Below are positions 35,522-61,680 of a stretch of DNA of 64,000 nucleotides, piece by piece (position 1 is the stretch's first letter; every line of letters begins with the position of its first letter). A model generated the notes under the pieces. That model saw only the letters and a list, made by a program, of their open reading frames with translations. It was not told the DNA's origin and searched no databases. The stretch comes from an uncultured Flavobacteriaceae bacterium. Its GTDB lineage: Bacteria > Bacteroidota > Bacteroidia > Flavobacteriales > Flavobacteriaceae. The position numbers and the translations under genes are program-made. The DNA is taken from assembly GCA_947502975.1 (NCBI GenBank), contig CANNBV010000001.1:930001-994000 (forward strand), given 5' to 3'.

Positions 35522-35530
35522 AATAAAATG

Positions 35531-41441: not shown

Positions 41442-41682
41442 GGGCAAATTTGCTAATGTAATACATCACCTAAAATTAGTGCGTGTCATTAACAATATGC
41501 TATTAGGTCGCATCTAAAGATAAGAACTTAACAGGTTTGTTTAATTTAGAACAAGTTTAAATTGAACTTTATTTGTAAGGATTTGTAATAACGTAAGACG
41601 CGAAAAACTTTAACTTTTTTTGAAAGTTTCTTGAAATAATATAGACTTAGGGTTTAGAAAATTGAAATTCAAATTGATAAAA

Positions 41683-45098: not shown

Positions 45099-46354
45099 TA
45101 AAAAGAATTTTAGCCCAAATACTTTGTTTTTTGTTTATGTTGACTGCATTGGCGCAACAAAATTATGTGGCTGATCTTAAAATTCAAGGTAACGAAAAAC
45201 TTAAATCCTCTTTTGTAAAAAAAATAGCGTCTTTAAAAGCTGGTGATGTGCTAGACTCATTACTAATTGAAGAAGACATTAAACTTTTAAAGCGGTTACC
45301 GTCTGTGTCCCATGCGTCATATCAAGTATTTCCTGCAGAAGATAATCAATTCAACGTATTTTATAACATTGAGGAAAACTTTACCCTAATACCTTCTGTA
45401 AATATTTATACAACTGATGATGATGAATTTGCATATCGTGTAGGTTTGTATGAGTTTAATACCTTAGGAAGGAATATTATTTTCGGAGGTTTTTTTCAGC
45501 ACGACATATATAACTCTCATGCCATAAATTTTAGAGCGCCGTTTTTATTTTCAAGACATTTTGGTCTTGCATTAAACTATCAGGATTTAACGACCCAAGA
45601 ACCTGTTTTTTTTGAAGATGAAACAGCAAATTACAAATACAATAATATCTCTTATGAGATTTTAGGTTTATATCGACTAAATTTTAATAATCGATTTGAA
45701 TTAGGTGTGAATTACTTTGTAGAAGATTATAGTTTTAAGGGTGAAAATATTAATAATAGGCCAGAACTTAATGTACACAAATGGTTGGCAAAAGGTATTT
45801 ACGAATACAATAACCTCAATTATTTTTATCAGTACATATCTGGATTTAGGAGCACCTTAAATTTGCAATATGTAACCTCTATGGACGCAATGTTACCCGA
45901 CTTCTTTATTGGCTGGAATGATTTTTTCTATTTCAAGCGCATTGGAGAAAAAGGTAATTGGGCAAATAGGTTACGTATGGGCTTGTCTTCTAATGATGAT
46001 ACGCCATTTGCTCCGTTTTCAGTAGATAATAACTTAAATGTTCGTGGTGTTGGTAACACCATTGATAGAGGTACTGGAGTTATAGTTTTAAATACTGAAT
46101 ATCGTCATACTTTATATGAAAAAAATTGGTTTGTACTTCAAGGCAATGCGTTTATTGATGCTGGTACATGGCGAAACCCTGGGGGCGATTTTGGAGATTT
46201 TAGTAACAAAGACAATCTTAAAGTTCACCCTGGTTTAGGATTGCGTTTTATTCATAAAAAAATCTATAATGCTATTTTTAGAATAGATTATGGTTATGGA
46301 ATTACTGAAGATACTACCAAAGGATTTGTATTCGGTATTGGGCAGTATTTTTAG
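45095..46354 (+). CDS. BamA/TamA-type outer-membrane protein
   Basis: 419 residues. Signal peptide (MIKRILAQILCFLFMLTALAQ), one POTRA-like domain (DLKIQGNEKLKSSFVKKIASL and EEDIKLLKRLPSV, residues 28-100), then a barrel of about 300 residues with the surface-antigen region NNLNVRGVGNTIDRGTG and a terminal FGIGQYF. Much shorter than BamA itself (one POTRA), so an Omp85-family secretion or assembly paralogue. Last gene of the operon; a palindrome-rich gap follows. Confidence 0.83.
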   Translation: MIKRILAQILCFLFMLTALAQQNYVADLKIQGNEKLKSSFVKKIASLKAGDVLDSLLIEEDIKLLKRLPSVSHASYQVFPAEDNQFNVFYNIEENFTLIPSVNIYTTDDDEFAYRVGLYEFNTLGRNIIFGGFFQHDIYNSHAINFRAPFLFSRHFGLALNYQDLTTQEPVFFEDETANYKYNNISYEILGLYRLNFNNRFELGVNYFVEDYSFKGENINNRPELNVHKWLAKGIYEYNNLNYFYQYISGFRSTLNLQYVTSMDAMLPDFFIGWNDFFYFKRIGEKGNWANRLRMGLSSNDDTPFAPFSVDNNLNVRGVGNTIDRGTGVIVLNTEYRHTLYEKNWFVLQGNAFIDAGTWRNPGGDFGDFSNKDNLKVHPGLGLRFIHKKIYNAIFRIDYGYGITEDTTKGFVFGIGQYF

Positions 46355-46400
46355 TCTCACTAATCCCGCTAAAAGCGGTATCAATATTTACATAATTCCT

Positions 46401-46557
46401 TTGGCGTTACCCTATCGGGTCGGGCTTTCTACTATATCTTTCTGCGAAGCAGTCCCGAACTTGTTTCGAGATTTCTTTACTAATTAATACTTCATCTAAA
46501 ATTTTAGTACCGGCATTTAAGGCTTCGCAAAAAGGATGTCGTTACAATCCCTAACGC
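46401..46557 (+). repeat. Dispersed repeat family 1, copy B, with nested family 2 element
   Basis: Begins TTGGCGTTACCCTATCGGGT and ends ACAATCCCTAACGC. The copy is longer than the others because it contains a family-2-like palindrome (46451-46480, CCCGAACTTGTTTCGAG) and an AT-rich stretch. Its middle could pair TCTGCGAAG with CTTCGCAAAA. The gap 46355-46678 otherwise holds only a CCGCT/AGCGG hairpin at 46366-46378 and a -7 box. Confidence 0.75.
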
Positions 46558-46653
46558 ACTTGTCAGCCAAAGCAAATCAGAATACAAAAAACAATAATTA
46601 TTTGCATACTATATTTCTTATAAAAAAACCACCGTTTTTAGGTAAGATTCTAC

Positions 46654-46661
46654 TAGTTTTG
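46654..46661 (+). promoter_or_regulatory. -7 box of the phosphatase gene
   Basis: TAGTTTTG matches TAnnTTTG, 17 bases before the ATG at 46679. No TTTG at the -33 position. Confidence 0.4.
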
Positions 46662-46678
46662 CCAAAAATTATTTCAAT

Positions 46679-47410
46679 ATGCGAACCTTAGCTATAGGCG
46701 ATATTCATGGCGGATTAAAAGGGGTAATTCAACTTTTAAATAAACTAGAACTAAAAGATGAAGATACTCTTATCTTCATGGGTGATTATGTAGATGGTTG
46801 GAGCGAATCTGCACAAGTTATTCAGTTTTTAATAGAACTTTCAAAAAAGTTCAAGTGTACTTTTATTAAGGGCAATCATGATGTTTGGGCAGAAGATTGG
46901 TTGAAAAATGGAGAGGTTAACCCAACTTGGTATATGCATGGAGGTAAAGAAACCATGGAAAGTTATGAAGGATTTTCACATGAGGAAAAGAAACGTCATT
47001 TAGAATTTTTCGAAAATCTTAAGATGTATCATATTGATGCTGAAAACCGATTATTTCTTCATGCAGGTTTTACCTCTATGCATGGTGTTGAAAAAGAAGT
47101 ATTTCAAACAACATTGTATTTTGATAGAACACTTTGGGAAATGGCATTAACAATGGATAAGCGTATTGAAAAATATTCAGAGTTATATCCAAAACGATTA
47201 ACACATTATAAAGAAATTTATATAGGTCATACCCCAACTATCAACTATAATAGTTATGTGCCTATAAATGCTATCAACGTATGGAATATTGATACAGGTG
47301 CTGCATTTTATGGAAAGTTGTCAGCAATAAATATCGATACTAAAGAAGTTTTTCAAAGTGATGTGGTCAAAGATTTATATCCAGAAGAAAAGGGACGAAA
47401 TAAACATTAA
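46679..47410 (+). CDS. Serine/threonine-phosphatase-like metallophosphoesterase
   Basis: 243-residue cytosolic phosphoesterase with the PPP-family motifs in order: GDIHGG (residues 7-12), MGDYVDGW, IKGNHDVW, and later LHAGF and IGHTP. It is smaller than eukaryotic phosphatases and similar to bacterial PrpE/ApaH-like enzymes; substrate unknown (protein, dinucleotide or small molecule). It converges with the arsenosugar-cluster glycosyltransferase, overlapping it by four bases. Confidence 0.88.
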   Translation: MRTLAIGDIHGGLKGVIQLLNKLELKDEDTLIFMGDYVDGWSESAQVIQFLIELSKKFKCTFIKGNHDVWAEDWLKNGEVNPTWYMHGGKETMESYEGFSHEEKKRHLEFFENLKMYHIDAENRLFLHAGFTSMHGVEKEVFQTTLYFDRTLWEMALTMDKRIEKYSELYPKRLTHYKEIYIGHTPTINYNSYVPINAINVWNIDTGAAFYGKLSAINIDTKEVFQSDVVKDLYPEEKGRNKH

Positions 47411-48129
47411 GTCTTCGTTAAATGCTGGAAATAATACGATTTGAGCTCAGAAGGTGAGGCACCGAGTTTACTTTTTAGGTGTATACGCCAAAAATGAAAT
47501 TGTGTTTTCCACACACCATGTTTTTTATAACACCTTGCAGATGTAGTTAGCCATTTTTGGATTACTACAAAATCATTAAGCGCATATAGTTTTTTAATTA
47601 AATCGTTATCCTCATAAATAGTAAAAGACTCGTCGTATCCACCAATTTTTTTAAAAAGCTGTCGTGTTATAAATTGGCTTTGATCGCCACCTCTACTCGC
47701 TTTTAGGGGTAAAGCGGTTAACCAACCTGCTAGTTTTAACCACCAATGATTACTGTCAAATCTCATTTTAAAACAGCCAGCATTATTACCTTTTTCAATT
47801 TCGGAGATAATGTATTGGTCAAAATTCTTCGGAGGAAAAGAATCAGCATGTAAAAAATATAGAATTTCACCTTTAGCAGCTTCAGCACCTTGGTTCATTT
47901 GCTTAGCACGGCCTTTTTTTGACTCTATTAACCTAATGTCAGTTCGAGTGTTTTTACTTTGCGACAACGTATCGAGAACCATATGTTGTGTACCATCAAC
48001 ACTACCGCCGTCAACCACGATAATGTCTTTAATATGTTCTTCAGAAGAGTTTTCAATAAGATGATTCAGCAATTTTTCAATCGTTGCTGCTTCGTTTAAA
48101 GTAGGTATGATTATGGATAGTTTATACAT
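47407..48129 (-). CDS. TIGR04283-family arsenosugar-biosynthesis glycosyltransferase
   Basis: 240-residue GT2-type enzyme of the subfamily called mycofactocin-glycosyltransferase-like that accompanies arsenosugar genes. LSIIIPTLNEAATIEKLL and VVDGGSVDGTQ start the fold, followed by KGRAKQMNQGAEAAKGEILYFLHADSFPP and GGYDESFTIYEDNDLIKKL. The donor and acceptor are not proven; a sugar or alcohol addition to the arsenical ribose is inferred from context. First (most downstream) gene of the minus-strand arsenosugar cluster. Confidence 0.88.
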   Translation of the reverse strand: MYKLSIIIPTLNEAATIEKLLNHLIENSSEEHIKDIIVVDGGSVDGTQHMVLDTLSQSKNTRTDIRLIESKKGRAKQMNQGAEAAKGEILYFLHADSFPPKNFDQYIISEIEKGNNAGCFKMRFDSNHWWLKLAGWLTALPLKASRGGDQSQFITRQLFKKIGGYDESFTIYEDNDLIKKLYALNDFVVIQKWLTTSARCYKKHGVWKTQFHFWRIHLKSKLGASPSELKSYYFQHLTKT

Positions 48130-48171
48130 CTAAATATTTTTAGCTTTTTCTAAAATTGATTCAGAATTTAT

Positions 48172-48199
48172 GAGATCCTGAAATAAATTCAGGATGACA
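48172..48199 (-). repeat. Dispersed palindrome (repeat family 2), reverse copy
   Basis: GAGATCCTGAAATAAATTCAGGATGACA (in two halves: GAGATCCTGAAA and TAAATTCAGGATGACA). Stem ATCCTGAA/TTCAGGAT with a five-base loop, just after the stop of the DUF547 lipoprotein gene. It may serve as a transcript processing or termination structure. Confidence 0.7.
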
Positions 48200-48206
48200 C
48201 AATGTG

Positions 48207-49142
48207 TCATTCATTTAAATCCCAGTTATAATCTTTAAAACGAGTTTTTGCTGTGTTCGAAATTTTAGTTTCAGAATATGTGTTAAGAAAATCTATTAAA
48301 GAACCATTCTGTTTAAAATCCTTAGCAAACCATTGAAATACTTTTGATAGCTCTAAACTGTTTTTAGAAATAGTATTTCTCTCAGAATCACTTAGGAATT
48401 CTTTGGTTGCGCTAGTTAATTGTTGTTCTATATTATGAGCTGTGAATGCTTTGTTTTGAAGTTTAGGACAGGAGTAAGATGCACAAACAATAGCAAAATG
48501 AATACGAGGCTCATCCATTTTACGTAAAATTTGATGCTCTATTTCATCTAAATTAAACCACTTTTTTCCTAGTTGCCAATAGCGTTGTTTCCAAGGATTT
48601 TTAATGTCTTTGATGCTTTTTATAGGGTAATGACGCAAAATTAAATCTACAGTCATAGCATTGTATGCATTGATCCAAAAGGCTAGTTTTTCTTCTATAG
48701 AAACTGATTCAAAATCATCATGAGAGTATATTAAATCTAAAAGACGGATGTAATCTAGCAACTTCTTATATTCTTTTTTAAGTGATTTGTAATTTACATT
48801 TCCATCTTTAGAAACATGCTTTGTTAACAATTCGTCCCATAGCTCATGAATTTTGATGGTTTTTTTATTGAGTATTTGATTGGATTCTTCTTCAGGTTTT
48901 TCGATGATTTCTTTAGCTTCAATAATTGGCGTATCAACAATCTCAATGTCATTATCTGATTGTGGCACGTACAACGAATCTGTATATTTAATAATTTCAG
49001 TAGTTTTAGTCACTATAGAATCCTTATTCTTTTTTACTGATGTTGGGGCAGATGAAGATGTTTCTGTATCAGAGATAACTTTTTTAGTTCCAGAACATGA
49101 TACTATAAAACCAAAAAGTATTAATAATTGTAGGTATTTCAT
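48207..49142 (-). CDS. DUF547 lipoprotein
   Basis: 311 residues. A lipobox (LFGFIVSCSGTKK, Cys16) is followed by a Ser/Thr/Glu-rich linker to residue 95 and a DUF547 domain: LAFWINAYNAMTVDLILR, HQILRKMDEPRIHFAIVCASYSCPKL and TISKNSLELSKVFQWF. Paralogue of the secreted DUF547 protein at 41683. DUF547 proteins recur in arsenosugar neighbourhoods, but the role is unknown. It lies 20 bases after the sterol-desaturase-like gene. Confidence 0.85.
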   Translation of the reverse strand: MKYLQLLILFGFIVSCSGTKKVISDTETSSSAPTSVKKNKDSIVTKTTEIIKYTDSLYVPQSDNDIEIVDTPIIEAKEIIEKPEEESNQILNKKTIKIHELWDELLTKHVSKDGNVNYKSLKKEYKKLLDYIRLLDLIYSHDDFESVSIEEKLAFWINAYNAMTVDLILRHYPIKSIKDIKNPWKQRYWQLGKKWFNLDEIEHQILRKMDEPRIHFAIVCASYSCPKLQNKAFTAHNIEQQLTSATKEFLSDSERNTISKNSLELSKVFQWFAKDFKQNGSLIDFLNTYSETKISNTAKTRFKDYNWDLNE

Positions 49143-49162
49143 TTTGAAGCCAAATTTAAAAA

Positions 49163-50062
49163 CTAATCTGTGTCTTTCTTTTCAGAAAATAAGGGATATA
49201 GTTCTTGTTTTACAAAACTTTCAGGAAAAGATTCGTCGCCACTAAATCCTAATTCAATGTCTTTTCCACTGTATGGGACATAATTTGTTTTAAATAAATA
49301 ATCCCAAACACTTAAAGTAAGTCCAAAATTTATGCCATACCTTACATGTGTTGGTAATGCTTTAGCATGATGCCATATGTGCATTTTTGGGTTGTTGAAA
49401 ATGTATTTTAAAATACCATAGTCCCAGCCCAGATTAGCATGATTTAAATGCCCAATACAAATAGCAAAAAAATAAACAATAGCAACGTCTTGAGCATTAT
49501 AATTAGCAATTAAAGCCAAAGGAATATATAAAAGGGATTTATAAACAACTGGCTCCATCCAATGGTAACGCAAATGAGCAGCAAACCCCATTTCTTTTAC
49601 TGAATGGTGGACTTTATGAAAATTCCATAAAGAAGGAATTCTATGTAAAAGTCTATGTGTATTCCATTGCACAAAATCACTCACTAAAAAGAACATTAAT
49701 AGTCCTAGCCATTTTGGCAAATCGTTAGCGTTATATAATTGGAAACTTGATAGAGATAATCCAATAAAGCCCAAAACATCATTAAATAATGTTGCAGCAG
49801 TATTAGAAAGTGCGATAAGTACAATTAGATTTAATAGGAAAAAATTGAAAAACATATAAAATGTATCCAACCAAAAATCTTTACGGAAAATGGACTGGTT
49901 TTTTCGCCAAGGAAAAATAATTTCTAGTATCCAAACTACAAGTGAAATCGCAATAAGACCATAAAAATAATTATCCCAATTATTTTGAAGTAAAATCTCG
50001 TTTTTGAGATAATTCCAATAATCGGAATAAGAATTTTTTATTAGTTCTAGATACCTTTCCAT
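49163..50062 (-). CDS. Sterol desaturase / fatty acid hydroxylase family protein
   Basis: 299-residue membrane protein with about five helices and the clustered histidines of the di-iron hydroxylase family: NTHRLLHR, HKVHHSVKEMG and HIWHHAK. It may hydroxylate or oxidise a lipid; in an arsenosugar cluster it could act on an arsenolipid (inference). It lies ten bases after arsM in the same transcript. A paralogue is at 34766. Confidence 0.85.
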   Translation of the reverse strand: MERYLELIKNSYSDYWNYLKNEILLQNNWDNYFYGLIAISLVVWILEIIFPWRKNQSIFRKDFWLDTFYMFFNFFLLNLIVLIALSNTAATLFNDVLGFIGLSLSSFQLYNANDLPKWLGLLMFFLVSDFVQWNTHRLLHRIPSLWNFHKVHHSVKEMGFAAHLRYHWMEPVVYKSLLYIPLALIANYNAQDVAIVYFFAICIGHLNHANLGWDYGILKYIFNNPKMHIWHHAKALPTHVRYGINFGLTLSVWDYLFKTNYVPYSGKDIELGFSGDESFPESFVKQELYPLFSEKKDTD

Positions 50063-50071
50063 ATTTTGGAA

Positions 50072-51043
50072 TTAGCAACATCCACCACCATCATAATGAT
50101 ATGTAGACTCGCTAATATAAATATCGTCTCTGTTCAATGATGCTATTGCCTCAGCGGTTTTATCACAAATAGCCAAAGGTTGATTTTTCAATAACACATG
50201 TCCCTTTTTATCATCAAAATAATCGTCTTCACCATAATATATTGCTGCTTTTCCTGTGAAAATACAAGGCCCATCTTCTGGCATAGGGTCTTTAATAGCA
50301 GCAACTTCAATAGATTCTATATAGATAAGCTCGTCTGTAGGATAATGTTTTGGATCTAAAATTCTGTATGGTTTTCTTGCTCTAATTTCAATAGTACCAA
50401 AACCTGCATCGGTTAAAGCTTTTACATATTCGGAAATTGGTAAACTTCCACTTAAACATAAAGCTCTTAAACGTTCGTCATTACGTAAAGTGTCATTCAT
50501 AGGCTGTTCACACGTAGGATCACTCATTACTAAACGTCCGTGAGGCTTTAAAACACGATACATTTCGGCAATAGCTTTTTTTAAATCGTCAGCTTTAAAA
50601 ATATTAAACAAGCAGTTTTGTGCTGCAACATCAATGCTATTATCTTCAACAGGTAAGTTTAAAGCGTCCCCTTTTTTAAGATCAATAAACTCACTTTTAA
50701 ACCAATCGTTTTGTGCTTCAGCCTCTAAAAAGTTTTTACGAGAAGCTTCCAACATTTCATCAACAACATCCACACCAACTACACCTCCTTTTTGACGGTT
50801 AAAATATGCGAATTGTAATAATTCCATGCCGCCACCTACACCAACATACAACATTTTTGGGTTATTGGTTAAATCTCTAGCGTGCACTGTAGAACCACAA
50901 CCGTAGTTCATCTCTTGCATAATTTTTGGAATTTTTAAACCAGGTAATTCCCAAATAGGGTTGGTTGTACAGCATAATCCAACATCTGGAGTTAAGGCTG
51001 CTTCTTTGTATACGTCGTGCGTTGTTTCTAAGTATGTACTCAT
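50072..51043 (-). CDS. arsM: Arsenosugar-type arsenite methyltransferase ArsM
   Basis: 323-residue SAM-dependent methyltransferase. An N-terminal Cys pair (Cys24-Cys25) and Cys48 in MNYGCGST suit arsenite binding; MLYVGVGGGMELLQFAYF and VVGVDVVDEMLEASRKN form the SAM site; AAQNCLFN, SDPTCEQP and LRALCLSGS give further conserved cysteines. The C terminus ends DGGGCC. In the pathway ArsM makes dimethylated arsenical for ArsS. The long C-terminal region separates this class from the simple detoxification enzymes. Upstream is a short 13-base tandem duplication. Confidence 0.92.
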   Translation of the reverse strand: MSTYLETTHDVYKEAALTPDVGLCCTTNPIWELPGLKIPKIMQEMNYGCGSTVHARDLTNNPKMLYVGVGGGMELLQFAYFNRQKGGVVGVDVVDEMLEASRKNFLEAEAQNDWFKSEFIDLKKGDALNLPVEDNSIDVAAQNCLFNIFKADDLKKAIAEMYRVLKPHGRLVMSDPTCEQPMNDTLRNDERLRALCLSGSLPISEYVKALTDAGFGTIEIRARKPYRILDPKHYPTDELIYIESIEVAAIKDPMPEDGPCIFTGKAAIYYGEDDYFDDKKGHVLLKNQPLAICDKTAEAIASLNRDDIYISESTYHYDGGGCC

Positions 51044-51051
51044 ATTTTTAG

Positions 51052-51077
51052 TTTTCAGTCTCCGTTTTCAGTCTCCG
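51052..51077. repeat. Tandem 13-base duplication upstream of arsM
   Basis: TTTTCAGTCTCCG occurs twice in direct tandem (51052-51064, 51065-51077), in the 74-base gap between arsM and the purine phosphorylase. Low-complexity sequence of this kind (CAGTCTC / GACTGCGACTG) continues to about 51115. Confidence 0.65.
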
Positions 51078-51117
51078 TCAGTATAGCTTTTTGTAAACAA
51101 TGACTGCGACTGTAAAC

Positions 51118-51930
51118 TTATAGTGATTTAATCAATTCTTTAAAAAGGACTACCATATTTGGTTCTGCTTTACCTGCCATTGCAATAATTTCGGCGATAT
51201 CTACAGGTTTTAGATTATCTGGGTCGCATTCATCTGTTAAAACTGACACTGCAGCCACTTTTAATTTTAAATGATTGGCAACAATGATTTCAGGAACAGT
51301 ACTCATACCAACAGCATCAGATCCAATAAGTTTTAACATTCTGTATTCTGCTCTAGTCTCTAGCTGCGGCCCAACAACGCTTGCATAGACACCTTCATGA
51401 AGCGTAATTTTATGTTCCTGAGCTATTTGTTTAAATTTTGCGTTAATTTCTAGGTCATAAGGTGCGCTCATATCCACAAAACGATCTCCCATTTGTTCAA
51501 TACCTCTTACCGCAAGTGGCGAACTTCCTTGAAGATTAATATGGTCATCAATAAGCATTAATTCTCCCTTCTTAAAATTTAAATTAATAGCACCAGCCGC
51601 ATTAGAAACTAAAAGTGTTGAAATACCTAATTGTTCCATGATGCGCACAGGATAGGTGACATCCTGCAAAGAATACCCTTCATAAACATGAAAGCGTCCT
51701 TGCATTACAACAACCTTTTTATTGCCTAAATTTCCATAAATGAGTTTACCTTTATGAAATTCAACAGTTGCTGTTGGGAAATTGGGAATATGATTATAAC
51801 TTACTTCTTTTAAAATCTCTACTGCATCAATAAGTTGTCCAAGACCAGTACCAAGTATGATGCCTACTTCTGGATTATCAAAACCTTTGTCTTTAAGATA
51901 ATCTACAGTTTCTTTAATAAATTTAACCAT
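51118..51930 (-). CDS. Purine nucleoside phosphorylase
   Basis: 270-residue trimeric-type phosphorylase (PNP-I) that splits purine nucleosides with phosphate to base and ribose 1-phosphate. GIILGTGLGQLIDAVE holds the phosphate-binding loop, LLVSNAAGAINLNFKKGELMLIDDHINL and GPQLETRAEYRML the base and ribose sites, and MSTVPEIIVANHLKLKVAAVSVLTD the Met/Asn specificity region. Within this cluster it could cleave adenine from the deoxyadenosyl arsenical made by ArsS. It may also serve general purine salvage. Overlaps the upstream TIGR04282 gene by eight bases. Confidence 0.92.
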   Translation of the reverse strand: MVKFIKETVDYLKDKGFDNPEVGIILGTGLGQLIDAVEILKEVSYNHIPNFPTATVEFHKGKLIYGNLGNKKVVVMQGRFHVYEGYSLQDVTYPVRIMEQLGISTLLVSNAAGAINLNFKKGELMLIDDHINLQGSSPLAVRGIEQMGDRFVDMSAPYDLEINAKFKQIAQEHKITLHEGVYASVVGPQLETRAEYRMLKLIGSDAVGMSTVPEIIVANHLKLKVAAVSVLTDECDPDNLKPVDIAEIIAMAGKAEPNMVVLFKELIKSL

Positions 51931-52555
51931 TGAGTTGTTTAATTTTTTCTTGTAATTGTAAGTTCGACTTATAAAATTCTGAAGCTATTAAATCTTCAAA
52001 AGTATCTATGTCGTTTAAAGTATCTAAAGTACTAAATGTAATTGCGTTTTTCTCTAATTCTTTTAGCGTTTCTTTCAACAAATTTGATTTGCTCCAGGGC
52101 TTATCATCGAACACACAATCATAAACTTTGGAAAGCCCGATAAGGTAATAACCACCATCTACAGCTGGTCCAAAAACGGCATCAGATTGTTCTAATGCTT
52201 TTAATCCACTTGATACATGATCTACATTGATATCTGGTAAATCAGAGCCAATAAGTACAATACGCTCATAACCATCTTCAAATCCTTTATTGAAAGCATT
52301 TTTCATTCTAACACCTAAATCATCACCTTGCTGAACAAATTTTTCAAAACCATTCCATTTAGTTTCTAAAATAGCATCCGAAAAATAAATGCGTTTATCT
52401 GCTTCAATTTCTGAGGTAGCTTTTTCTGTGATGTTTACCAGGGCTTTATATACTTCAAATGCGCCTTGGTTACCTATGGTTTTTGCAAGTCTGGTTTTTA
52501 CTTTTCCTAGCTTTATATTTTTTACAAAAACTATAACGAGATCTTTAGTCATCAT
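51923..52555 (-). CDS. TIGR04282-family arsenosugar-biosynthesis glycosyltransferase (CofC-like)
   Basis: 210-residue protein with a nucleotidyl/glycosyl-transferase GT-A-like fold: LVIVFVKNIKLGKVKTRLAKTIG, IVLIGSDLPDIN, FGPAVDGGYYLIGLSK and DTLNDIDTFEDL. This subfamily is named for its tie to arsenosugar clusters and its likeness to F420 enzyme CofC. Start is either Met at 52555 or 52552, overlapping the rhodanese gene by 11 or 8 bases. A more divergent paralogue is at 56296. Confidence 0.87.
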   Translation of the reverse strand: MMTKDLVIVFVKNIKLGKVKTRLAKTIGNQGAFEVYKALVNITEKATSEIEADKRIYFSDAILETKWNGFEKFVQQGDDLGVRMKNAFNKGFEDGYERIVLIGSDLPDINVDHVSSGLKALEQSDAVFGPAVDGGYYLIGLSKVYDCVFDDKPWSKSNLLKETLKELEKNAITFSTLDTLNDIDTFEDLIASEFYKSNLQLQEKIKQLNG

Positions 52556-53042
52556 ACACTTTAATTCCTTTTTTTAGCCATTGACTCCATTCTAAAGAGA
52601 ATGTGTGTACACTGTCTGTTACTTTTTCTACTGAATTGTATACTGGTAAATTATTATTCTTCCATTCAAAAATACCTCCAAAAAGATTTTTTATATTGGT
52701 ATAACCAGCCTTTTTTAAACTGTCTCCAATAGATTCCGAGCGAATACCAACGGAGCAGTAGACAATGATTTGCGAATTTTTATTTGGTATTTTTTGCGCA
52801 ACACTATCCATTTTAAAATGATCATATCCTACATGAATTGCATTTTTTAAATGACTTGTGTTGTATTCTCTCAATTCTCTTGAATCTAGAAGTATAATGT
52901 CTTTATCTAATGCGTTTAATTGCTGAGTTGTGATATACGGAATACTGTTGTCGTTGTATTCTTTTAGCAATTTTTTGATAGATTTTTGAGCTATTCCTGA
53001 TGCAGATGTTAGCACAAATATGTACACTAATAGATATTTCAT
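52545..53042 (-). CDS. Rhodanese-like secreted protein
   Basis: 165 residues. A signal peptide (MKYLLVYIFVLTSASGIAQ) leads into a rhodanese domain: IILLDSRELREYNTSHLKNAIHVGY, then the active-site loop IIVYCSVGIRSE with Cys96. Such proteins transfer sulfur or act in thiol chemistry; periplasmic location follows from the signal. In this cluster it could act on arsenic-sulfur chemistry (inference only). It lies 16 bases after the TonB receptor gene. Confidence 0.87.
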   Translation of the reverse strand: MKYLLVYIFVLTSASGIAQKSIKKLLKEYNDNSIPYITTQQLNALDKDIILLDSRELREYNTSHLKNAIHVGYDHFKMDSVAQKIPNKNSQIIVYCSVGIRSESIGDSLKKAGYTNIKNLFGGIFEWKNNNLPVYNSVEKVTDSVHTFSLEWSQWLKKGIKVYDD

Positions 53043-53058
53043 AACATTTAAGACGTTT

Positions 53059-56000
53059 TTAAAATTTAAAGTTTACACCAAACTGCATACGCCATCTTGA
53101 ATTTTGATTGTCTACAACCCATGGTGTATCATCAGTATTAGTATACTGAAATTGAGGTTGGTTATTTTCTATGCCTCTAAATCGTAAAAGACTAAAATTA
53201 GAGTTCACCACATTTGGAACAAATACCAAACGTCCCCATTTTCGGTTGAGAAAGTTAGGAATATTAAAAACATCCATAGAAAAAGCAATGCTTTTTTTTC
53301 CTCCTAATTTTTTATTGAATTGAATTTTTCCGTCTAAGCGATGATTCCATGGTGTTTTTGGCCCGTTTCTTTCAGCATAGCTACCTCTGTTTTTACTTAG
53401 ATAATTATTGTTTTCTATAAAATTATTTAATCTGTCCCACTGCTCACTTGCTGTTTGTAAAACAATACCATTACCATCTACAACATCTATTAGGTTAATC
53501 TCAGAAGCATCTCTTGGAATATAGATTAAATCGTTTCTAGAAGAACCATCTCTATTAACATCACCTTGGTATACAAATGAAAATGGACTTCCAGATGTGC
53601 CATTGTACAATAATGAAAGGTCAAAATTACTAGTAGCATTCAATTTGAAATTATAAGATTGTGTACTTACAATTTTATGTCTCAAATCAAAATTAGAAAA
53701 CGATAAGGCTGGATCATTTGAATTTAGTGCTTGATTCCACTCAAAATTAGCAGCAGGTGAACTTCTTACGGTGCTGGATACATCTTTACTTTTTCCATAA
53801 GTGTAACCTAAATATCCAGAATAATTGATGTTGTTTTTAGATAGACCTAGGGTTAAATTATAACGGAACCCTTTATTTGAATTACTCAATAAAAAGACAT
53901 TGGTAAAATTTGGATTGATTTTAATAGCATCACCCGTGGCAAGAAAGTAGGTCCTATTATCTGCGCCATCAAATTGGCCCACATTAGTTTCTCTATTAAC
54001 AGATTTAAAAAAGATACCTTTTAATACTTTGGTATAAGAGGCATCAAAAGTGAGATTGAAATTATCAGGTAGCTTTACATTTACTCCTACATTTGACTTC
54101 CATTCTCTAGGTAATTGAAAATCAGTGTCAACTAAATTAATTTCTGCGATAGGTTGTCCGTTTGATAAATCGCTGATATTATTCACTAATTGTTGTTCGC
54201 TATCTGGTCTAACATCTACATTAAAATATTGGGTTCCTGAGATATATTCAGCATAAGCAAACCATAAATAGGGAAGACGACCTGTAAATAAACCAGAGCC
54301 GCCTCTTAGTTTTACTTGATCGTTTAGATGATATTCAAAACCAAATCTGGGATTTAAGTGAGGTGCTGTTTTAATTTCATTATTAAAGTTTGAAAATTCT
54401 GGAGTGTTTTTAACCTCATCACTCACAGGTAATTCATCTAAAAGAAATTGAGAATCTAATCGAAGTCCGAAAGTTAGAGCCAAATTATCATTAACTCTGT
54501 AACGATCTTGAGCATATAATCCTGCCACTAAAACATCAACAGTAGCCGAAGGTGTATTTTGTACAAAATCGAACGTATTGTTTTCCAGACGATATACACC
54601 TCTAATTCGTGATGGTCTATCTGCCAAGAAATTGTCTACAGAACTATATTCCCACCTGCCATTCCATGCTGATAAGAACCCGTAATCTATATCGTTATAT
54701 TGCGCTATGCCTCCTACTGTAAATGAATGCCTATTCTTGGTGAAGCTGTATTTATTATTGATTTGGAATGTGGATAAATCCGTGTTATATACTGAAGCTT
54801 CTCTATATGTTCCTGCAAATAGTCTATTTGAAGCATCAGAAACTTGAATGTGTGGAAACACATCACCATCAAAGGTTCTGTCTTCTTTACCAATGTTATA
54901 GCCTATGCTTAATAAATTAGTTGCGTTATTATTGAATTTAGAATTTAATTCTGCCGTGAAACTATTGGCTATGCTGTTATGTCTAAATCCTTGATTTCCA
55001 AAATTGAATATAGATTCATTCCATTCTAAATTATCAGCATAACTACTCACAAAATTATTTCTTACAGTGAGTTTGGTTTGATCTGAAATGTTATAGTCTA
55101 ATCTGAAAAATAACTTTGAACTATTGGTTTTTAAAGAAGCATTTGTAAAACTACCGGGATCATAATTATAATCGTTTATCAATTTGTTAGAAATTGCAGT
55201 AACAGTTTCTAAGGAGATATTTGAAGAAGAAGATCCAGGTGCATTTAAAACAGGGTTACTAGAATTTGCTTGTTCAAAATTTATAAAATAGAACAATTTA
55301 TCTTTTTTTAAGGCACCACCAGTGGTAAAGCCAATTTGAAAGTCATGAAAATCACCAACATTTTGTTTTTTATTATCAGCATAACGGCCTATTAAAACCT
55401 GGTTATTTCCATATGCATAAACTTCTGACATTCTAGTATTAGTACCATTTTTGGTGACCACATCTATGTTGGCCCCACTAAAATTACCAATGCTCACATC
55501 AAAAGGTGTCGTTTTTATGGATAACTGTTTTATACTGCCAAAAGCAATAGGCTGTGTTCTGGCCAAACTTCCTGGACTTCCGTTAGCTGAGGATCCTGCG
55601 GCACCACTAGAAGGTTCTTGGAAACCAATGACATCATTATTAGCAACACCATCAATGTTTAAATTGTTGAATCGATTACTAGCTCCAGCAAATGAATTTA
55701 AATTGGCTTCAGGGAGATTTCTCGTTAAATCCTGTATGCTTCGTGTTATTGTTGGCGTATTTTTTATAAGACTGGAATTAATCGTTTTTTCGTTACCTGT
55801 TGTTTTTTGTTCTGAAGTAATTAAAACTTCATCAAGTGCATTGGTGTCTTCTTTTAAAACGGTATTAACTCTAGTGATGGCTCCAAGATTAATATGTACG
55901 TTTTCAATAATTTCGGTTTTATAACCTATGTAGCTTATTTCAATTTTGTAGGCTGTTCCAGGCGGAATACTGTTAACTATATAATAGCCTGATTCTTGAG

Positions 56001-56172
56001 AAACTGCCCCAAATCTAGAATTGGTTTCTGTATCTGTAACTATGATGTTTGCGAGCTCAATAGGTGTATTATCGCTTAGCGTTATCTTTCCTTCCAGTTT
56101 GCCTGTAGTTTCTTGAGCATAGATAGAAGTTAACGTTAAAAGTGCTAATAATAGTAGCAATATTTTTTGCAT
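53059..56172 (-). CDS. TonB-dependent outer-membrane receptor
   Basis: 1037 residues. Signal peptide MQKILLLLLALLTLTSIYAQ; residues 25-115 are a carboxypeptidase regulatory-like domain (GKITLSDNTPIELANIIVTDT, NSIPPGTAYKIEISYIGYKTEII); residues 130-240 the plug (RSIQDLTRNLPEANLNSFAGASNRFNNLNIDG); the rest a long beta-barrel with the C-terminal QFGVNFKF. There is no SusD partner, so glycan uptake is not indicated. It lies inside the arsenosugar cluster and might take up or export an arsenical (inference). Confidence 0.92.
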   Translation of the reverse strand: MQKILLLLLALLTLTSIYAQETTGKLEGKITLSDNTPIELANIIVTDTETNSRFGAVSQESGYYIVNSIPPGTAYKIEISYIGYKTEIIENVHINLGAITRVNTVLKEDTNALDEVLITSEQKTTGNEKTINSSLIKNTPTITRSIQDLTRNLPEANLNSFAGASNRFNNLNIDGVANNDVIGFQEPSSGAAGSSANGSPGSLARTQPIAFGSIKQLSIKTTPFDVSIGNFSGANIDVVTKNGTNTRMSEVYAYGNNQVLIGRYADNKKQNVGDFHDFQIGFTTGGALKKDKLFYFINFEQANSSNPVLNAPGSSSSNISLETVTAISNKLINDYNYDPGSFTNASLKTNSSKLFFRLDYNISDQTKLTVRNNFVSSYADNLEWNESIFNFGNQGFRHNSIANSFTAELNSKFNNNATNLLSIGYNIGKEDRTFDGDVFPHIQVSDASNRLFAGTYREASVYNTDLSTFQINNKYSFTKNRHSFTVGGIAQYNDIDYGFLSAWNGRWEYSSVDNFLADRPSRIRGVYRLENNTFDFVQNTPSATVDVLVAGLYAQDRYRVNDNLALTFGLRLDSQFLLDELPVSDEVKNTPEFSNFNNEIKTAPHLNPRFGFEYHLNDQVKLRGGSGLFTGRLPYLWFAYAEYISGTQYFNVDVRPDSEQQLVNNISDLSNGQPIAEINLVDTDFQLPREWKSNVGVNVKLPDNFNLTFDASYTKVLKGIFFKSVNRETNVGQFDGADNRTYFLATGDAIKINPNFTNVFLLSNSNKGFRYNLTLGLSKNNINYSGYLGYTYGKSKDVSSTVRSSPAANFEWNQALNSNDPALSFSNFDLRHKIVSTQSYNFKLNATSNFDLSLLYNGTSGSPFSFVYQGDVNRDGSSRNDLIYIPRDASEINLIDVVDGNGIVLQTASEQWDRLNNFIENNNYLSKNRGSYAERNGPKTPWNHRLDGKIQFNKKLGGKKSIAFSMDVFNIPNFLNRKWGRLVFVPNVVNSNFSLLRFRGIENNQPQFQYTNTDDTPWVVDNQNSRWRMQFGVNFKF

Positions 56173-56295
56173 ACCAAGTGTTTGTATATCATTTATATTA
56201 AAAACCTTTTTGCATTAGATTTTTATTGAAATGAAATTTTTTAATTTATTTATTTGGATGTTTTGAGCTAGTAAAGACCTTGCTTTTACTTTATG

Positions 56296-56979
56296 CTAGT
56301 AAGAAAAATAAAGAGGAGACCCTTTGTTTAAATAATGATTAATAACAAAACAATATGAGCCTATGTCTAGACGCGTGGTTATTATTTTATTAAGAGAAGT
56401 ATATTTAATTAAAAGTTTTTTTATAGTTCTAGAAAGTGTTTTAGAATGATTTAAAACAGTTTCTATGTCAGATATGGTATCAATATCTGTTAGGGATTCT
56501 AAAAAAGTAACACTTAATTTTACTGAAGCTACTAATTTGGTAAAACTTCTATTTAATTTAGAAGTTTGCCAAGGGAGTTTTAAAAAAGTATTAGCATTAA
56601 AATGCGCTTTTTTAAGTCCCATTAAATAAAAACCGCCGTCTGTTGAAGGCCCTAAAACAATATCATGTATTTTAAGTTTTTCAACTGCTTTTACTATATG
56701 TTTTGAGGTTAAATGTGGTGTATCGTTTCCAATGGTTATAACAGCATCAAATCCTTTGTTGTACACAGACTGAATGGCATTAGTAAATCGTTCTCCGAAG
56801 GATTGACCAATTTGCTGTGTTTCAGAATGTATAAAGAAAGGTAAGCCAGTGTTCTTCGCAATGGTATATGTTTTATTGTTTAAAACTTCAAATACCCGTT
56901 TTGATGAAAAAGATTTTGTTGTAATTTCTTTTTCGGCAGAATTGGCAAAAATTAATATAGCTGTTTTACCGTTTTTCAT
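56296..56979 (-). CDS. DUF2064 / TIGR04282-like transferase paralogue
   Basis: 227 residues from ATG 56979 (TTG at 56991 would overlap arsS). The N-terminal half has the CofC-like DUF2064 signature (GKTAILIFANSAEKE, AVITIGNDTPHL, LGPSTDGGFYLMGLKK, LTDIDTISDIETVL). The motif is less regular than in the 51923 paralogue, and the C-terminal 70 residues (SLNKIITTRLDIGSYCFVINHY) are not typical, so function may have shifted. It lies 4 bases downstream of arsS and is probably co-translated. Confidence 0.8.
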   Translation of the reverse strand: MKNGKTAILIFANSAEKEITTKSFSSKRVFEVLNNKTYTIAKNTGLPFFIHSETQQIGQSFGERFTNAIQSVYNKGFDAVITIGNDTPHLTSKHIVKAVEKLKIHDIVLGPSTDGGFYLMGLKKAHFNANTFLKLPWQTSKLNRSFTKLVASVKLSVTFLESLTDIDTISDIETVLNHSKTLSRTIKKLLIKYTSLNKIITTRLDIGSYCFVINHYLNKGSPLYFSY

Positions 56980-56983
56980 ATCA

Positions 56984-58048
56984 TTAAGCAACTACACCTT
57001 GGCAACTACTACCTGCACCAGCAGTACACCCATAACAATGTTGAGAAATCACGATATTCCTACCTTCTAATAAATCTTCGTTGTATTCAGAAATGTGTTT
57101 TACTTTACTGTTTACAGGAAGTTCTAGCATTTGATTAAAATCACAGTCATACAGATAACCATCCCAACTTATAGAAAGGGTATTTGTGCACATCACATTT
57201 GCTACAGCAGCAGGATTATAAGCTTCAACCAATTGATACATGTAATCTTCGTAGTTTTCTGAAGCGATAAGGAAATCTAGAAATCTAGAGATTGGTAAGT
57301 TTGTTATAGCAAATAGATTGTGAAACTGAATACCAAAGTCATCCATCAATGCTTTCTTAAAGTCTTTTTCCATAGACATTTGGTCTCCAGGTAAAAAAGC
57401 TCCTGAAGGATTGTACACCAAATCTAAACGTAAATCGCTATCTGGCATTCCATAGCCTACAGCATTCAATTCTTGTAATGCTTTTATAGAAGCATCAAAA
57501 ACACCGTCACCACGTTGTTTATCGGTTTTACCACGTGTCCAGTGTGGCATAGAACTTACAACATGAACATTATGTTTTTTAAAGAATTCGGGTAAGTCGT
57601 AATACTTTTTATTAGCGCGAATAATGGTAAGGTTAGAGCGTACTATAAAATCTTTAATACCAGCTTTCGCAGCTTCTTCTACAAACCACCTGAAATCAGG
57701 ATTCATTTCTGGTGCACCTCCAGTTAAATCTAAAGTATGAGCTCCTGTATTTTTTATGACTTCCAAGCATTGTTGCATGGTCTCTCTTGTCATGATTTCT
57801 TTTCGGTCTGGACCAGCATCAACATGACAATGCTCACATACTTGGTTACACATATAACCCACATTTATTTGAAGAATCTCAAGCTTTTTAGCTTTTAATG
57901 GAAACTGATTGGTTTCTGATATTTTATCTTTAAATGTTGGTAATTCTCCGTTTTGAAAAATGCCATTAGACAAAATTTCCAATTGTCGGTTACTTTGCGC
58001 TAAATCGCTGTCGCGCTTGTGTAGTGATTGTGTTTTTATTTTCGTCAT
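56984..58048 (-). CDS. arsS: Arsenosugar biosynthesis radical SAM protein ArsS
   Basis: 354-residue radical SAM enzyme of the ArsS family. The 4Fe-4S cluster motif is C67-x3-C71-x2-C74 in VGYMCNQVCEHCHVDAG; LDLTGGAPEMNPDF, SNLTIIRANKKYYDLPEFF and MCTNTLSISWDGYLYDCDFNQML are family segments. The Cys-rich C terminus CYGCTAGAGSSC (Cys338, 341, 349) is a hallmark; some homologues carry selenocysteine there, here it is Cys. It joins a 5'-deoxyadenosyl group to dimethylarsenite. A family-1 repeat lies between it and the peroxidase-like gene. Confidence 0.93.
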   Translation of the reverse strand: MTKIKTQSLHKRDSDLAQSNRQLEILSNGIFQNGELPTFKDKISETNQFPLKAKKLEILQINVGYMCNQVCEHCHVDAGPDRKEIMTRETMQQCLEVIKNTGAHTLDLTGGAPEMNPDFRWFVEEAAKAGIKDFIVRSNLTIIRANKKYYDLPEFFKKHNVHVVSSMPHWTRGKTDKQRGDGVFDASIKALQELNAVGYGMPDSDLRLDLVYNPSGAFLPGDQMSMEKDFKKALMDDFGIQFHNLFAITNLPISRFLDFLIASENYEDYMYQLVEAYNPAAVANVMCTNTLSISWDGYLYDCDFNQMLELPVNSKVKHISEYNEDLLEGRNIVISQHCYGCTAGAGSSCQGVVA

Positions 58049-58087
58049 ATTCTTTTTTACGGATATTATCTTAGGACGTTCTGATTT

Positions 58088-58172
58088 CGCGTTAGGGATT
58101 GAACGGCATGTGGAGCTCCCGACCTAAGGAGGAGCGACTAGTGAAAGCCCGACCCCTTGTGGGTAACGCCCA
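58088..58172 (-). repeat. Dispersed repeat family 1, copy C (reverse)
   Basis: Reads GCGTTAGGGATTGAACGG at the left and GTGGGTAACGCCCA at the right, the reverse complement of copies A and D. The interior pairs GGAGCTCC with the neighbourhood of GGAGCG. It lies in the 129-base gap between arsS and the peroxidase-like gene and may split that transcript. Confidence 0.85.
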
Positions 58173-58177
58173 AAAAG

Positions 58178-58513
58178 CTAACCGTCTAACTTATTTACTT
58201 TATTCATCATTTGTACGCCATGTACCAATGTTGCGCCACTTTTTATAGCAGCACCAACGTGTATGGCTTCCATCATTTCTTCTTTAGTAACACCGCGTTG
58301 TAAACCGTCTTTGGTGTAAGCATCAATGCAGTAAGGGCATTGTTCTGTATGCGCAACCGCTAATGCAATTAAAGATTTTTCTCTAGCCGTAAGTGCACCT
58401 TCTTCGAAAACTTTACCATAATATTCAAAGAATTTGTTGCCTAATTCTTCACTCCATTCTGTGATTTTTCCAAATTTTCTAAGGTCTGCGGGGTCGTAAT
58501 ATGTTTTTTGCAT
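58178..58513 (-). CDS. Arsenosugar-biosynthesis-associated peroxidase-like protein (CMD/AhpD family)
   Basis: 111 residues from ATG 58513 (a TTG at 58564 is unlikely). Carboxymuconolactone-decarboxylase/AhpD fold: LTAREKSLIALAVAHTEQCPYCIDAYTKDGLQRG holds the CxxC pair Cys59/Cys62 and His55, followed by EEMMEAIHVGAAIKSG. The CPYC pair with nearby His suits a peroxidase or thiol-redox role. This subfamily travels with ArsS. It is the first gene of the minus-strand cluster; a weak -33/-7 pair is seen upstream. Confidence 0.88.
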   Translation of the reverse strand: MQKTYYDPADLRKFGKITEWSEELGNKFFEYYGKVFEEGALTAREKSLIALAVAHTEQCPYCIDAYTKDGLQRGVTKEEMMEAIHVGAAIKSGATLVHGVQMMNKVNKLDG

Positions 58514-58531
58514 GTTAAATTTCTTTTCAGG

Positions 58532-58565
58532 TAAAGATAAGCATCTGCTGGTTTTTGTCGGCAAA
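58532..58565 (-). promoter_or_regulatory. Weak promoter before the peroxidase-like gene
   Basis: Minus-strand TATCTTTA (58539-58532) with a TTTG at 58565-58562, 22 bases away. The last base of the -7 box is A rather than G, and spacing is slightly long. Confidence 0.35.
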
Positions 58566-58658
58566 AAGTGATGGACTTAACAAAAAAATCAGATAATTTG
58601 ATTACTTAAATTTTTCGTAGAAATGGAATTGATATTTTCTGAAACAGGATTGAATACT

Positions 58659-58678
58659 AAAGGTGAATACTTACCTTT
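58659..58678. promoter_or_regulatory. Imperfect dyad before xylulokinase, candidate LacI-type operator
   Basis: AAAGGT at 58659-58664 and ACCTTT at 58673-58678 are perfect 6-base arms around GAATACTT; 16 of the 20 bases are symmetric. It lies 27 bases before the GTG start of the xylose operon, where the LacI-family protein at 63452 could bind. No TAnnTTTG promoter was recognised here. Confidence 0.4.
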
Positions 58679-58705
58679 CATAATTCTAATTTTAAAACCA
58701 ATTAC

Positions 58706-60187
58706 GTGTATTACATAGGGTATGATTTGGGAAGCTCTTCAGTTAAAGTGTCCATTGTTGATGCTAAAACAGGAACAAATGTAGTGACACTTAATGAGCC
58801 AACTAATGAGATGGAAATTGTTGCGCCACAGCAAAACTGGGCAGAACAAGATCCAAATATGTGGTGGCATTATGTGTGTGTGGCTACAAAACGTGCCATT
58901 AAAGAAGGTAATATTGATGCTTCAAAAATTGAAGCTATAGGGATCTCGTATCAAATGCATGGATTGGTTGTTGTAGATAAGTCTGGTGAGCCTTTGCGGA
59001 ATTCAATTATATGGTGCGACAGTCGCGCTGTAGAAATTGGGAACACCGCTTTTGAAACTTTAGGCGAAAGCCAGTGCATGGAAAAACTACTAAATTCTCC
59101 TGGTAATTTTACAGCTTCTAAATTAAAATGGGTGCGAGATAACGAACCTGAAATTTATAATAAAATAGATAAATACATGCTTCCTGGAGACTTTATCGCG
59201 ATGAAGTTAACAGGAGAAATTAATACTACCAAAAATGGTTTATCTGAAGGTATGCTTTGGGATTATAAAACTGATACAGTTGCCAATTGGTTATTAGAGC
59301 ATTATGATATCAACACGACGTTAACGCCAAATATTGTTGAGAATTTTACCATTCAAAGTAAGGTAAACGAAATAGGAGCAAATGCAACAGGATTACCAGA
59401 AGGTATTCCAGTAACCTACAGAGCTGGAGATCAACCTAACAATGCCTTATCTCTTAATGTGTTTAATCACGGAGAGGTAGCAGCAACAGGAGGTACTTCG
59501 GGTGTTGTATATGCCGTAACTAATGTTTTAAAATCAAAAGAATCGTCACGAATTAACCATTTTGCGCATGTTAATTACACCAAAGAGAATGCCACTTTAG
59601 GTAAGTTGTTATGTATTAATGGTGCGGGAATTCAATACCGATGGTTAAAGGACAATTTAGCATCAGATTCTTATGAGGCTATGAACCAAAAAGCAGAAGA
59701 CGTACCCGTTGGGTCAGAAGGTGTATGTGTTATTCCCTTTGGAAACGGTGCAGAACGCATGTTCAACAATGCCATAGTTGGCACTCATATTAGCAATTTA
59801 AATTTGAACATGCATGGCGAAGGGCATTTGTGTCGCGCAGCTTTAGAAGGTATAGCGTTTTCATTTGTGTATGGTATGGACATTTTAAAAGCAGATAATG
59901 CAGAGATAAAAGTAATTCGTGCTGGTAATGATAATTTATTCCGTTCAGAAATTTTTTCAAATACCGTAGCGACTTTAATCGGTCACGAAATCGAAATTTA
60001 TAACACAACTGGAGCCATAGGTGCAGCAAGAGCCGCAGGATTAACCGATGGCGATTTTAAGAAATTTGGCGACAACATTACAGCTAACGATCATGTAATG
60101 ACATATAAACCTTTAGGGAATAAAGCCCCGTATGAAGCGGCATATGAAAACTGGAAAAAGGCATTGGAAAACGTTTTAAATAAGTAA
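58706..60187 (+). CDS. xylB: Xylulokinase (FGGY family)
   Basis: 493-residue FGGY carbohydrate kinase that phosphorylates D-xylulose to xylulose 5-phosphate. The GTG start at 58706 opens the ATPase motif YIGYDLGSSSVKVSIVD; QMHGLVVVD is the sugar-binding segment typical of xylulokinases, and the second half has GGTSGVVYAV and VIRAGNDNLFRS. The GTG is the only sensible start; no ATG lies in frame upstream. First gene of the xylose operon; a family-1 repeat separates it from xylA by 162 bases. Confidence 0.92.
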   Translation: MYYIGYDLGSSSVKVSIVDAKTGTNVVTLNEPTNEMEIVAPQQNWAEQDPNMWWHYVCVATKRAIKEGNIDASKIEAIGISYQMHGLVVVDKSGEPLRNSIIWCDSRAVEIGNTAFETLGESQCMEKLLNSPGNFTASKLKWVRDNEPEIYNKIDKYMLPGDFIAMKLTGEINTTKNGLSEGMLWDYKTDTVANWLLEHYDINTTLTPNIVENFTIQSKVNEIGANATGLPEGIPVTYRAGDQPNNALSLNVFNHGEVAATGGTSGVVYAVTNVLKSKESSRINHFAHVNYTKENATLGKLLCINGAGIQYRWLKDNLASDSYEAMNQKAEDVPVGSEGVCVIPFGNGAERMFNNAIVGTHISNLNLNMHGEGHLCRAALEGIAFSFVYGMDILKADNAEIKVIRAGNDNLFRSEIFSNTVATLIGHEIEIYNTTGAIGAARAAGLTDGDFKKFGDNITANDHVMTYKPLGNKAPYEAAYENWKKALENVLNK

Positions 60188-60190
60188 TAT

Positions 60191-60278
60191 TTGGGCGTTA
60201 CCCACAAGGGGTCGGGCTTTCGGCAGTCGCTCTCTCCTGCGTCGAGGAGCTTCAACAAATGCCTCAATCCCTAACGCG
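60191..60278 (+). repeat. Dispersed repeat family 1, copy D
   Basis: Begins TTGGGCGTTACCC and ends CAATCCCTAACGCG; almost identical to copy A apart from an insert in the central loop. It lies between xylulokinase and xylose isomerase, inside one operon, so it is transcribed and could fold or be processed in the mRNA. Confidence 0.85.
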
Positions 60279-60349
60279 AAAGCAACTTTAGGAAAACAAT
60301 AACATATATATATAAACGAATAAACATATAAACTCATAAACAATAAGAA

Positions 60350-61675: not shown

Positions 61676-61680
61676 TTAAT

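Follow-up and report, generated by a model that had tools for sequence, protein, structure and literature searches.

How a bacterium completes an arsenosugar once arsenic has been methylated and adenosylated is the question raised by an operon in the window studied here, a stretch of 64,000 nucleotides from an uncultured Flavobacteriaceae bacterium (contig CANNBV010000001.1, positions 930,001 to 994,000). From the list of open reading frames (ORFs) and our reading of the window, eleven minus-strand ORFs at 47407-58564 form one operon. ArsM converts arsenite to dimethylarsenite, and ArsS joins the arsenic of dimethylarsenite to the 5'-deoxyadenosyl group of S-adenosylmethionine (SAM). A review credits a radical SAM enzyme with arsenic adenosylation (PMC12159101), and in the portions of the literature on which we drew, what follows ArsS is the unsettled stretch of arsenosugar biosynthesis. 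We lean toward a full route to an arsenosugar or arsenolipid in which a purine nucleoside phosphorylase (PNP), a TIGR04282 protein that we call CofC1, and a TIGR04283 glycosyltransferase of the GT2 type act in that order. Our confidence in this route is moderate because we infer all steps and catalysis past ArsS. It offers two testable intermediates, arsenoribose-1-phosphate and a nucleoside diphosphate (NDP)-arsenoribose.

A proposed route past ArsS

In the proposed route, PNP would cleave the ArsS product by phosphorolysis into 5-deoxy-5-dimethylarsinoyl-alpha-ribose-1-phosphate and adenine. CofC1 would transfer a nucleotide from a nucleoside triphosphate onto the phosphate of arsenoribose-1-phosphate, giving NDP-arsenoribose, and the inverting GT2 enzyme would place the arsenoribose on glycerol or a glycerol-containing lipid as a beta-riboside. 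PNP is inverting, nucleotidyl transfer is retaining, and GT2 is inverting. The series PNP, CofC1, GT2 would therefore yield a beta-riboside, the form in which natural arsenosugars are listed (5-dimethylarsenoyl-beta-D-Ribf; PMC10456119). Our guess is that the membrane hydroxylase and the DUF547 protein of the operon may act on a lipid-linked product. A first-pass annotation of this DNA had the transferases finishing the sugar, an idea that is refined here in that the first TIGR04282 protein looks like a nucleotidylyltransferase and the TIGR04283 protein like a GT2 enzyme.

The operon and its conservation

In transcription order, the eleven genes and their family matches are as follows:

58178..58564, minus strand, peroxidase/CMD-like protein (TIGR04169, 192.9 bits, cut-off 120; PF02627)
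56984..58048, minus strand, ArsS, radical SAM protein whose family role is to form the C-As bond (TIGR04167, 443.4 bits, cut-off 300)
56296..56991, minus strand, CofC2, a diverged TIGR04282-like paralog (TIGR04282, 109.2 bits, under the cut-off of 134)
53059..56172, minus strand, TonB-type outer-membrane receptor (PF25183, PF13620 and PF13715, CarboxypepD_reg, over cut-off)
52545..53042, minus strand, rhodanese with a signal-like N-terminus (NF045521, 201.7 bits, cut-off 145)
51923..52555, minus strand, CofC1, probable nucleotidylyltransferase (TIGR04282, 188.6 bits, cut-off 134)
51118..51930, minus strand, PNP (NF006054, 343.7 bits, cut-off 218)
50072..51043, minus strand, ArsM, arsenosugar-type arsenite methyltransferase, AsSugarArsM (NF038099, 581.8 bits, cut-off 400)
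49163..50062, minus strand, FAH, membrane protein of the fatty-acid hydroxylase/sterol-desaturase family, OlsE-like (PF04116, 89.1 bits; 81 bits against NF052566, under that model's cut-off of 475)
48207..49142, minus strand, DUF547 protein with a lipoprotein-like N-terminus (PF04784, 102.7 bits)
47407..48129, minus strand, GT2 glycosyltransferase (TIGR04283, 234.4 bits, cut-off 182; PF00535)

This is a known kind of cluster, already named 'arsenosugar biosynthesis' in NCBIfam. As in the ArsM/ArsS arsenosugar pathway, matches to NF038099, TIGR04167, TIGR04169, TIGR04282, and TIGR04283 all exceed their cut-offs in one operon, to which the window adds PNP, rhodanese, the hydroxylase, DUF547, CofC2, and the receptor. 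The first-pass annotation had counted eleven minus-strand genes and assigned them to arsenosugar biosynthesis; all eleven ORFs are present, and curated models and conserved gene order back the assignment. Two of the checks that it proposed bear on this: ArsM and ArsS lie over the cut-offs of their family models, and the same arrangement of genes is seen again and again in the 100 neighbourhoods fetched from the family. Its labels for the PNP, peroxidase-like, rhodanese, DUF547, and sterol-desaturase-family genes agree with the family matches above. The cluster end that it gave, 58513, coincides with an internal ATG at which the peroxidase-like gene probably begins; its mechanical start is a TTG at 58564. 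A CxxxCxxC motif can be read in the window's ArsS and is present in 119 of 120 ArsS ORFs, the window's included. The search for structured RNA gave zero Rfam matches at the gathering threshold in window positions 46000-60000.

We searched 199 genomes from 198 genera of the source's family, Flavobacteriaceae. ArsS is over cut-off in 148 of these; in a sample of 395 genomes from across the phylum, 156 have it. All 148 ArsS-bearing family genomes have TIGR04282, as against 10 of the 51 that lack ArsS (Fisher p = 2e-33, ignoring shared ancestry, for which the counts are likewise uncorrected). We also compared 120 ArsS neighbourhoods of about 20 kb each, 100 from the family and 20 from outside it. 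The family loci were drawn by score rank from the 147 other ArsS-bearing family genomes, skipping places at contig ends and some lower ones; contig ends nevertheless cut 5 of the 100. Genes were labelled by phmmer with the window proteins (E 1e-5), and counts refer to genes inside the fetched stretch. Among the family loci, the peroxidase-like gene was labelled in 94, CofC1 and PNP in 76 each, DUF547 in 66, ArsM and GT2 in 62 each, rhodanese in 61, FAH in 41, CofC2 in 24, and a TonB-type receptor like the window's in 1. The wider-phylum loci, counted by subtraction, hold the peroxidase-like gene in 18, CofC1 and GT2 in 9 each, ArsM in 3, and PNP in none.

The conserved order is peroxidase-ArsS-[slot]-rhodanese-CofC1-PNP-ArsM-FAH-DUF547-GT2. 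Because TIGR04282 co-occurs with ArsS and this order recurs across the family neighbourhoods, the association is not one of chance. A bare peroxidase-ArsS-CofC1-GT order is found in 5 of the 20 wider-phylum loci (L179-L183), and this set looks like the core.

CofC1 as a probable nucleotidylyltransferase

The reassignment at the center of the proposed route is that CofC1 is probably a nucleotidylyltransferase and not a glycosyltransferase. An AlphaFold2 (AF2) model of CofC1, built on an alignment that held 45 of 86 CofC1 copies, has a pLDDT of 96.0. Its best Foldseek matches are 3cgx (E 2.6e-22), FbiD (6bwh_A, E 1.6e-10; also 6bwg), CofC (2i5e_A, E 2.5e-9), and the product complex 7p97 (E 4.5e-9); lower in the list are nucleotidylyltransferases such as Kdo cytidylyltransferase. 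The model also resembles 3-phosphoglycerate guanylyltransferase. Five residues, K20, R22, and the metal/phosphate aspartates D105, D182, and D184, are invariant in all 86 copies. FbiD is described as holding the phosphate of its substrate via two Mg2+ and D116/D188/D190 (PMC6450877). The KTRLA and D-x-D segments of CofC1 align weakly with FbiD, and by motif and this weak alignment, rather than by superposed coordinates, D105/D182/D184 and K20/R22 appear to correspond to FbiD-type sites.

CofC1 thus has the fold that marks CofC/FbiD-type enzymes, together with their three aspartates and K-x-R pair, and shares the fold, the three aspartates, and a K-T-R segment with the guanylyltransferases 6bwh, 2i5e, and 7p97 and with 3cgx. 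Its presumed substrate, a sugar-1-phosphate, sets it apart from the CofC/FbiD guanylyltransferases. Because the best structural matches and the invariant residues fit nucleotidylyltransferases, we regard that activity as the likelier one, which suggests that the curated name 'glycosyltransferase' for TIGR04282 is wrong. One paper already names a TIGR04282 gene 'arsenosugar biosynthesis gene fbiD' (PMC8801600), so that in this form the kinship with FbiD has been published, and the relevant portions of PMC12159101, PMC8787705, and PMC8801600 give no tested function for TIGR04282.

CofC2, a diverged paralog that accompanies ArsS

The first-pass annotation had counted two TIGR04282 proteins; the count holds for CofC1, whereas CofC2 is a different, loop-less paralog that misses the cut-off and matches the TIGR04282 profile at positions 72-189 only. 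Its relative in locus L102 scores 105.7 bits. No NCBIfam model is over cut-off for CofC2, and its Pfam matches are limited to two broad models, DUF2064 and CofC. We assembled 25 copies found near ArsS, the window's included, one of which (L158) is too short at the K-x-R site. The K-x-R pair is present in 0 of the 24 readable copies, and the three aspartates are kept in 25, 25, and 24 of the 25. CofC2 differs from the CofC/FbiD guanylyltransferases in the loss of the K-x-R pair and in carrying a tail at its C-terminus. In a tree of 111 proteins, CofC2 forms its own clade, as one side of a branch with an SH-aLRT of 100 (a quick method, with no bootstrap). The tail, N-K-G-S-P, follows a variable linker in the 23 of 25 copies that were aligned. 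Its codons differ synonymously among the 25 copies read, which speaks against a DNA element and makes conservation at the protein level likelier. The CofC2 model (pLDDT 91.1) has a CofC1-like fold and a low-confidence C-terminus.

A scan independent of ArsS, in which a CofC2 alignment was searched against a genome contig collection, found 375 stretches with relatives, and we examined the best 80; the rows of that alignment were themselves drawn from ArsS loci. ArsS lies inside the flank in 78 of the 80, and in 76 it immediately precedes CofC2 on the same strand; 78 have an NKGSP-like tail, and searching residues 1 to 45 for the K-x-R motif found it in 0 of 80. Furthermore, in ten family loci CofC2 stands with ArsS and a TetR regulator (the peroxidase-like gene being labelled in nine), and CofC1 is not encoded within the 20 kb; in these loci, CofC2 thus travels with ArsS and not with CofC1. 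We consider CofC2 to be probably a non-catalytic or altered partner that works beside ArsS. That it is a conserved accessory protein without an NCBIfam model of its own is a new point.

An exchangeable slot next to ArsS

Between ArsS/CofC2 and rhodanese lies an exchangeable slot that holds mostly importer genes. In 62 of the best 80 CofC2 loci, SusC is the next gene on the same strand after CofC2; rhodanese takes that place in 8, ArsM in 5, a TonB-type receptor in 4, and another gene or none in 1. Like SusC/SusD uptake loci, the slot of relatives holds SusC (TIGR04056) and a SusD-like protein (PF12771); where we read the set, in L102, SusD, a weakly SSF-like symporter, and a calcineurin-like phosphoesterase stand alongside. 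By contrast, the window's slot lacks SusC and SusD and has a single PF25183 receptor instead. No NCBIfam model matched this receptor (53059-56172), and the window's slot has no other minus-strand ORF of at least 80 amino acids. A sequence search of this genome with the relatives' slot symporter gave no match, and the 11 general SSF matches in the genome are uninformative on that point. Judged by these gene families, the slot may serve import, and the comparison ties the arsenosugar pathway to uptake genes.

The first-pass annotation had listed the TonB receptor as a cluster member. The gene is indeed there, but it is not a conserved part: among the matches listed for 200 fetched loci it has one close relative, in L121, at 70.6% identity and placed behind ArsM. 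Other loci pair a TonB-type receptor with transporter genes of the ABC kind. The six genes scanned in L274 are a receptor, a binding protein, two permeases, an ATPase, and an additional radical SAM protein, and in L246 the scan covered a binding protein and one permease. A receptor shared across these loci was considered and dropped: those of L246, L272, and L274 have 23-29% identity to the window's over parts, and that of L260 is not among the matches listed. At such identity, the receptor-plus-ABC loci are an analogy and not the same receptor. A separate observation, outside the slot, is a run between ArsM and the hydroxylase in L070 (4857-8268), in which PstC and PstA exceed their cut-offs, whereas PstS- and PstB-like proteins fall below theirs.

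CofC2 and SusC tend to occur together. When loci with the TetR arrangement are set aside, a choice made after the orders were seen, 82 family loci are left, of which 12 have both genes, 2 CofC2 only, 4 SusC only, and 64 neither (Fisher p = 1.8e-9). The link is weaker across all 100 loci, with 12, 12, 7, and 69, respectively (p = 4.9e-5); both values ignore shared ancestry. It is conceivable, if improbable, that CofC2 is a new, dedicated partner of ArsS and that the importer slot, filled by SusCD with a symporter and phosphoesterase, by a receptor plus ABC genes, or as in the window by a lone receptor (with PstSCAB elsewhere in one operon), makes the operon an acquisition and recycling system. 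CofC2 would then be a pseudoenzyme derived from a nucleotidylyltransferase, keeping the phosphate-binding side, with its NKGSP tail docking on or completing an active site. The operon would take up and recycle compounds of arsenic or ribosyl phosphate, such as the phosphate-arsenosugars of algae or, when phosphate is scarce, arsenate, rather than merely detoxify.

Alternative explanations

Several observations weigh against the PNP-CofC1-GT2 route. GT-A glycosyltransferases also appear among the Foldseek matches of CofC1, further down the list, and its sequence matches are weak (2i5e, E 0.54; FbiD, E 1.3). TIGR04282 and TIGR04283 might both be glycosyltransferases, with adenine lost by hydrolysis or through PNP and without a nucleotide sugar. 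NCBIfam names TIGR04282 a glycosyltransferase, and for an arsenolipid of algae a route by way of an adenosyl-nucleosidase has been put forward (PMC10456119). We consider this unlikely, since the structural matches and invariant residues of CofC1 are of the nucleotidylyltransferase type. PNP itself is single-copy, with one match in each of 23 of the 26 genomes searched (this one included) and none in three, and it is present in genomes without ArsS, either away from other labelled genes or within a reduced module. Because there is a single match of its kind per genome, ArsS-less genomes included, PNP is probably the cell's ordinary enzyme drawn into the operon. An Asp-for-Asn change was considered as a candidate adenine switch and rejected as specific to the cluster: Thr-Asp (232-233) occurs in 77 of 77 cluster PNPs and also in 16 of 16 from ArsS-less genomes, these 16 being part of a set of 23 PNPs that all have it, so that PNP shows no cluster-specific change. 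None of the 20 wider-phylum loci, the five compact ones included, has a labelled PNP; there it may be encoded elsewhere in the genome, or another enzyme may supply the sugar phosphate. PNP could be a housekeeping bystander or could support arsenate reduction, which a review reports for PNP in vitro (PMC12608789). We give this reading perhaps one chance in several, as PNP stands directly after CofC1 in 70 of the 76 CofC1-bearing family loci and beside it in 6 of 8 ArsS-less modules.

Those modules raise the most serious alternative. Ten family genomes without ArsS retain TIGR04282, and ArsM is over cut-off in 0 of these ten (G104 has a match of 89.8 bits); among ten ArsS-bearing genomes checked, ArsM is over cut-off in nine, G046 being the exception. 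The eight of the ten loci that we fetched hold rhodanese in 7, CofC1 in 8, PNP in 6, DUF547 in 6, and GT2 in 8, although the GT2 of L219 is probably of another type, judged by its neighbours; L213 has a distant peroxidase-like ORF (39% identity). Because it is present in genomes without ArsS and ArsM, the rhodanese-CofC1-PNP-DUF547-GT2 half of the operon is separable and perhaps not arsenic-specific, which weighs against an arsenic-specific CofC1 and GT2 and fits a general role in ribosyl activation. This half could thus be a general module that makes a ribose glycoside, into which ArsM and ArsS feed an arsenic-bearing ribose in some species. Genes for ADP-ribosylglycohydrolase and an APH-type kinase lie near the module in 3 of the 8 loci (L213, L214, L217; most of the other five were not scanned for such neighbours), with a nucleoside hydrolase in two of those three. 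The presence of TIGR04282 in every ArsS-bearing family genome speaks against such a general module, and what is seen in ArsS-less genomes may be left over from a pathway since lost. We hold it to be a real contender, though short of an even chance, and one compatible with the PNP-CofC1-GT2 route, as both can hold. Finally, CofC2 and the slot genes might be neutral hitchhikers of a detoxification operon: among the 100 family loci, 76 gave no CofC2, and L075, the locus of a congener (G132), lacks CofC2, the receptor, and FAH. We doubt this, given the retained aspartates of CofC2, the constancy of its tail despite synonymous codon changes, and the near-constant presence of ArsS in its flank.

Neighbouring genes

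Several genes around the operon resemble parts of other ArsS loci. At 38324-41327 on the minus strand lie an FAD/NAD oxidoreductase-like protein and a NapH-like ferredoxin membrane protein whose family matches resemble a gene pair of L081. The clusters to which the two L081 genes belong occur in 37 and 32 loci, often downstream of GT, and in L184 they immediately precede the peroxidase-like gene and ArsS. The pair is a possible electron supply, judged by family likeness. A second OlsE-like hydroxylase adjoins a homocysteine S-methyltransferase-like gene (33834-35557, minus strand), upstream of two GT2-like genes, and a second DUF547 protein is encoded on the opposite, plus strand at 41662-42396. 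The plus-strand gene at 43363-44370 encodes a GH113-like protein, and many ArsS loci have a GH113-like cluster downstream of GT. A calcineurin-like phosphoesterase (46679-47410, plus strand) is convergent with the GT2 gene and has relatives in 23 of the 120 loci. In L126, L133, L140, and L169, a phosphoesterase and the peroxidase-like protein share a single open frame (L126:5499-6752); both Pfam domains were checked in L126 only. On the other side of the operon, at 58706-63333 on the plus strand, a xylulokinase-like protein, xylose isomerase, and a sodium/solute symporter make up an ordinary-looking adjoining xylose locus.

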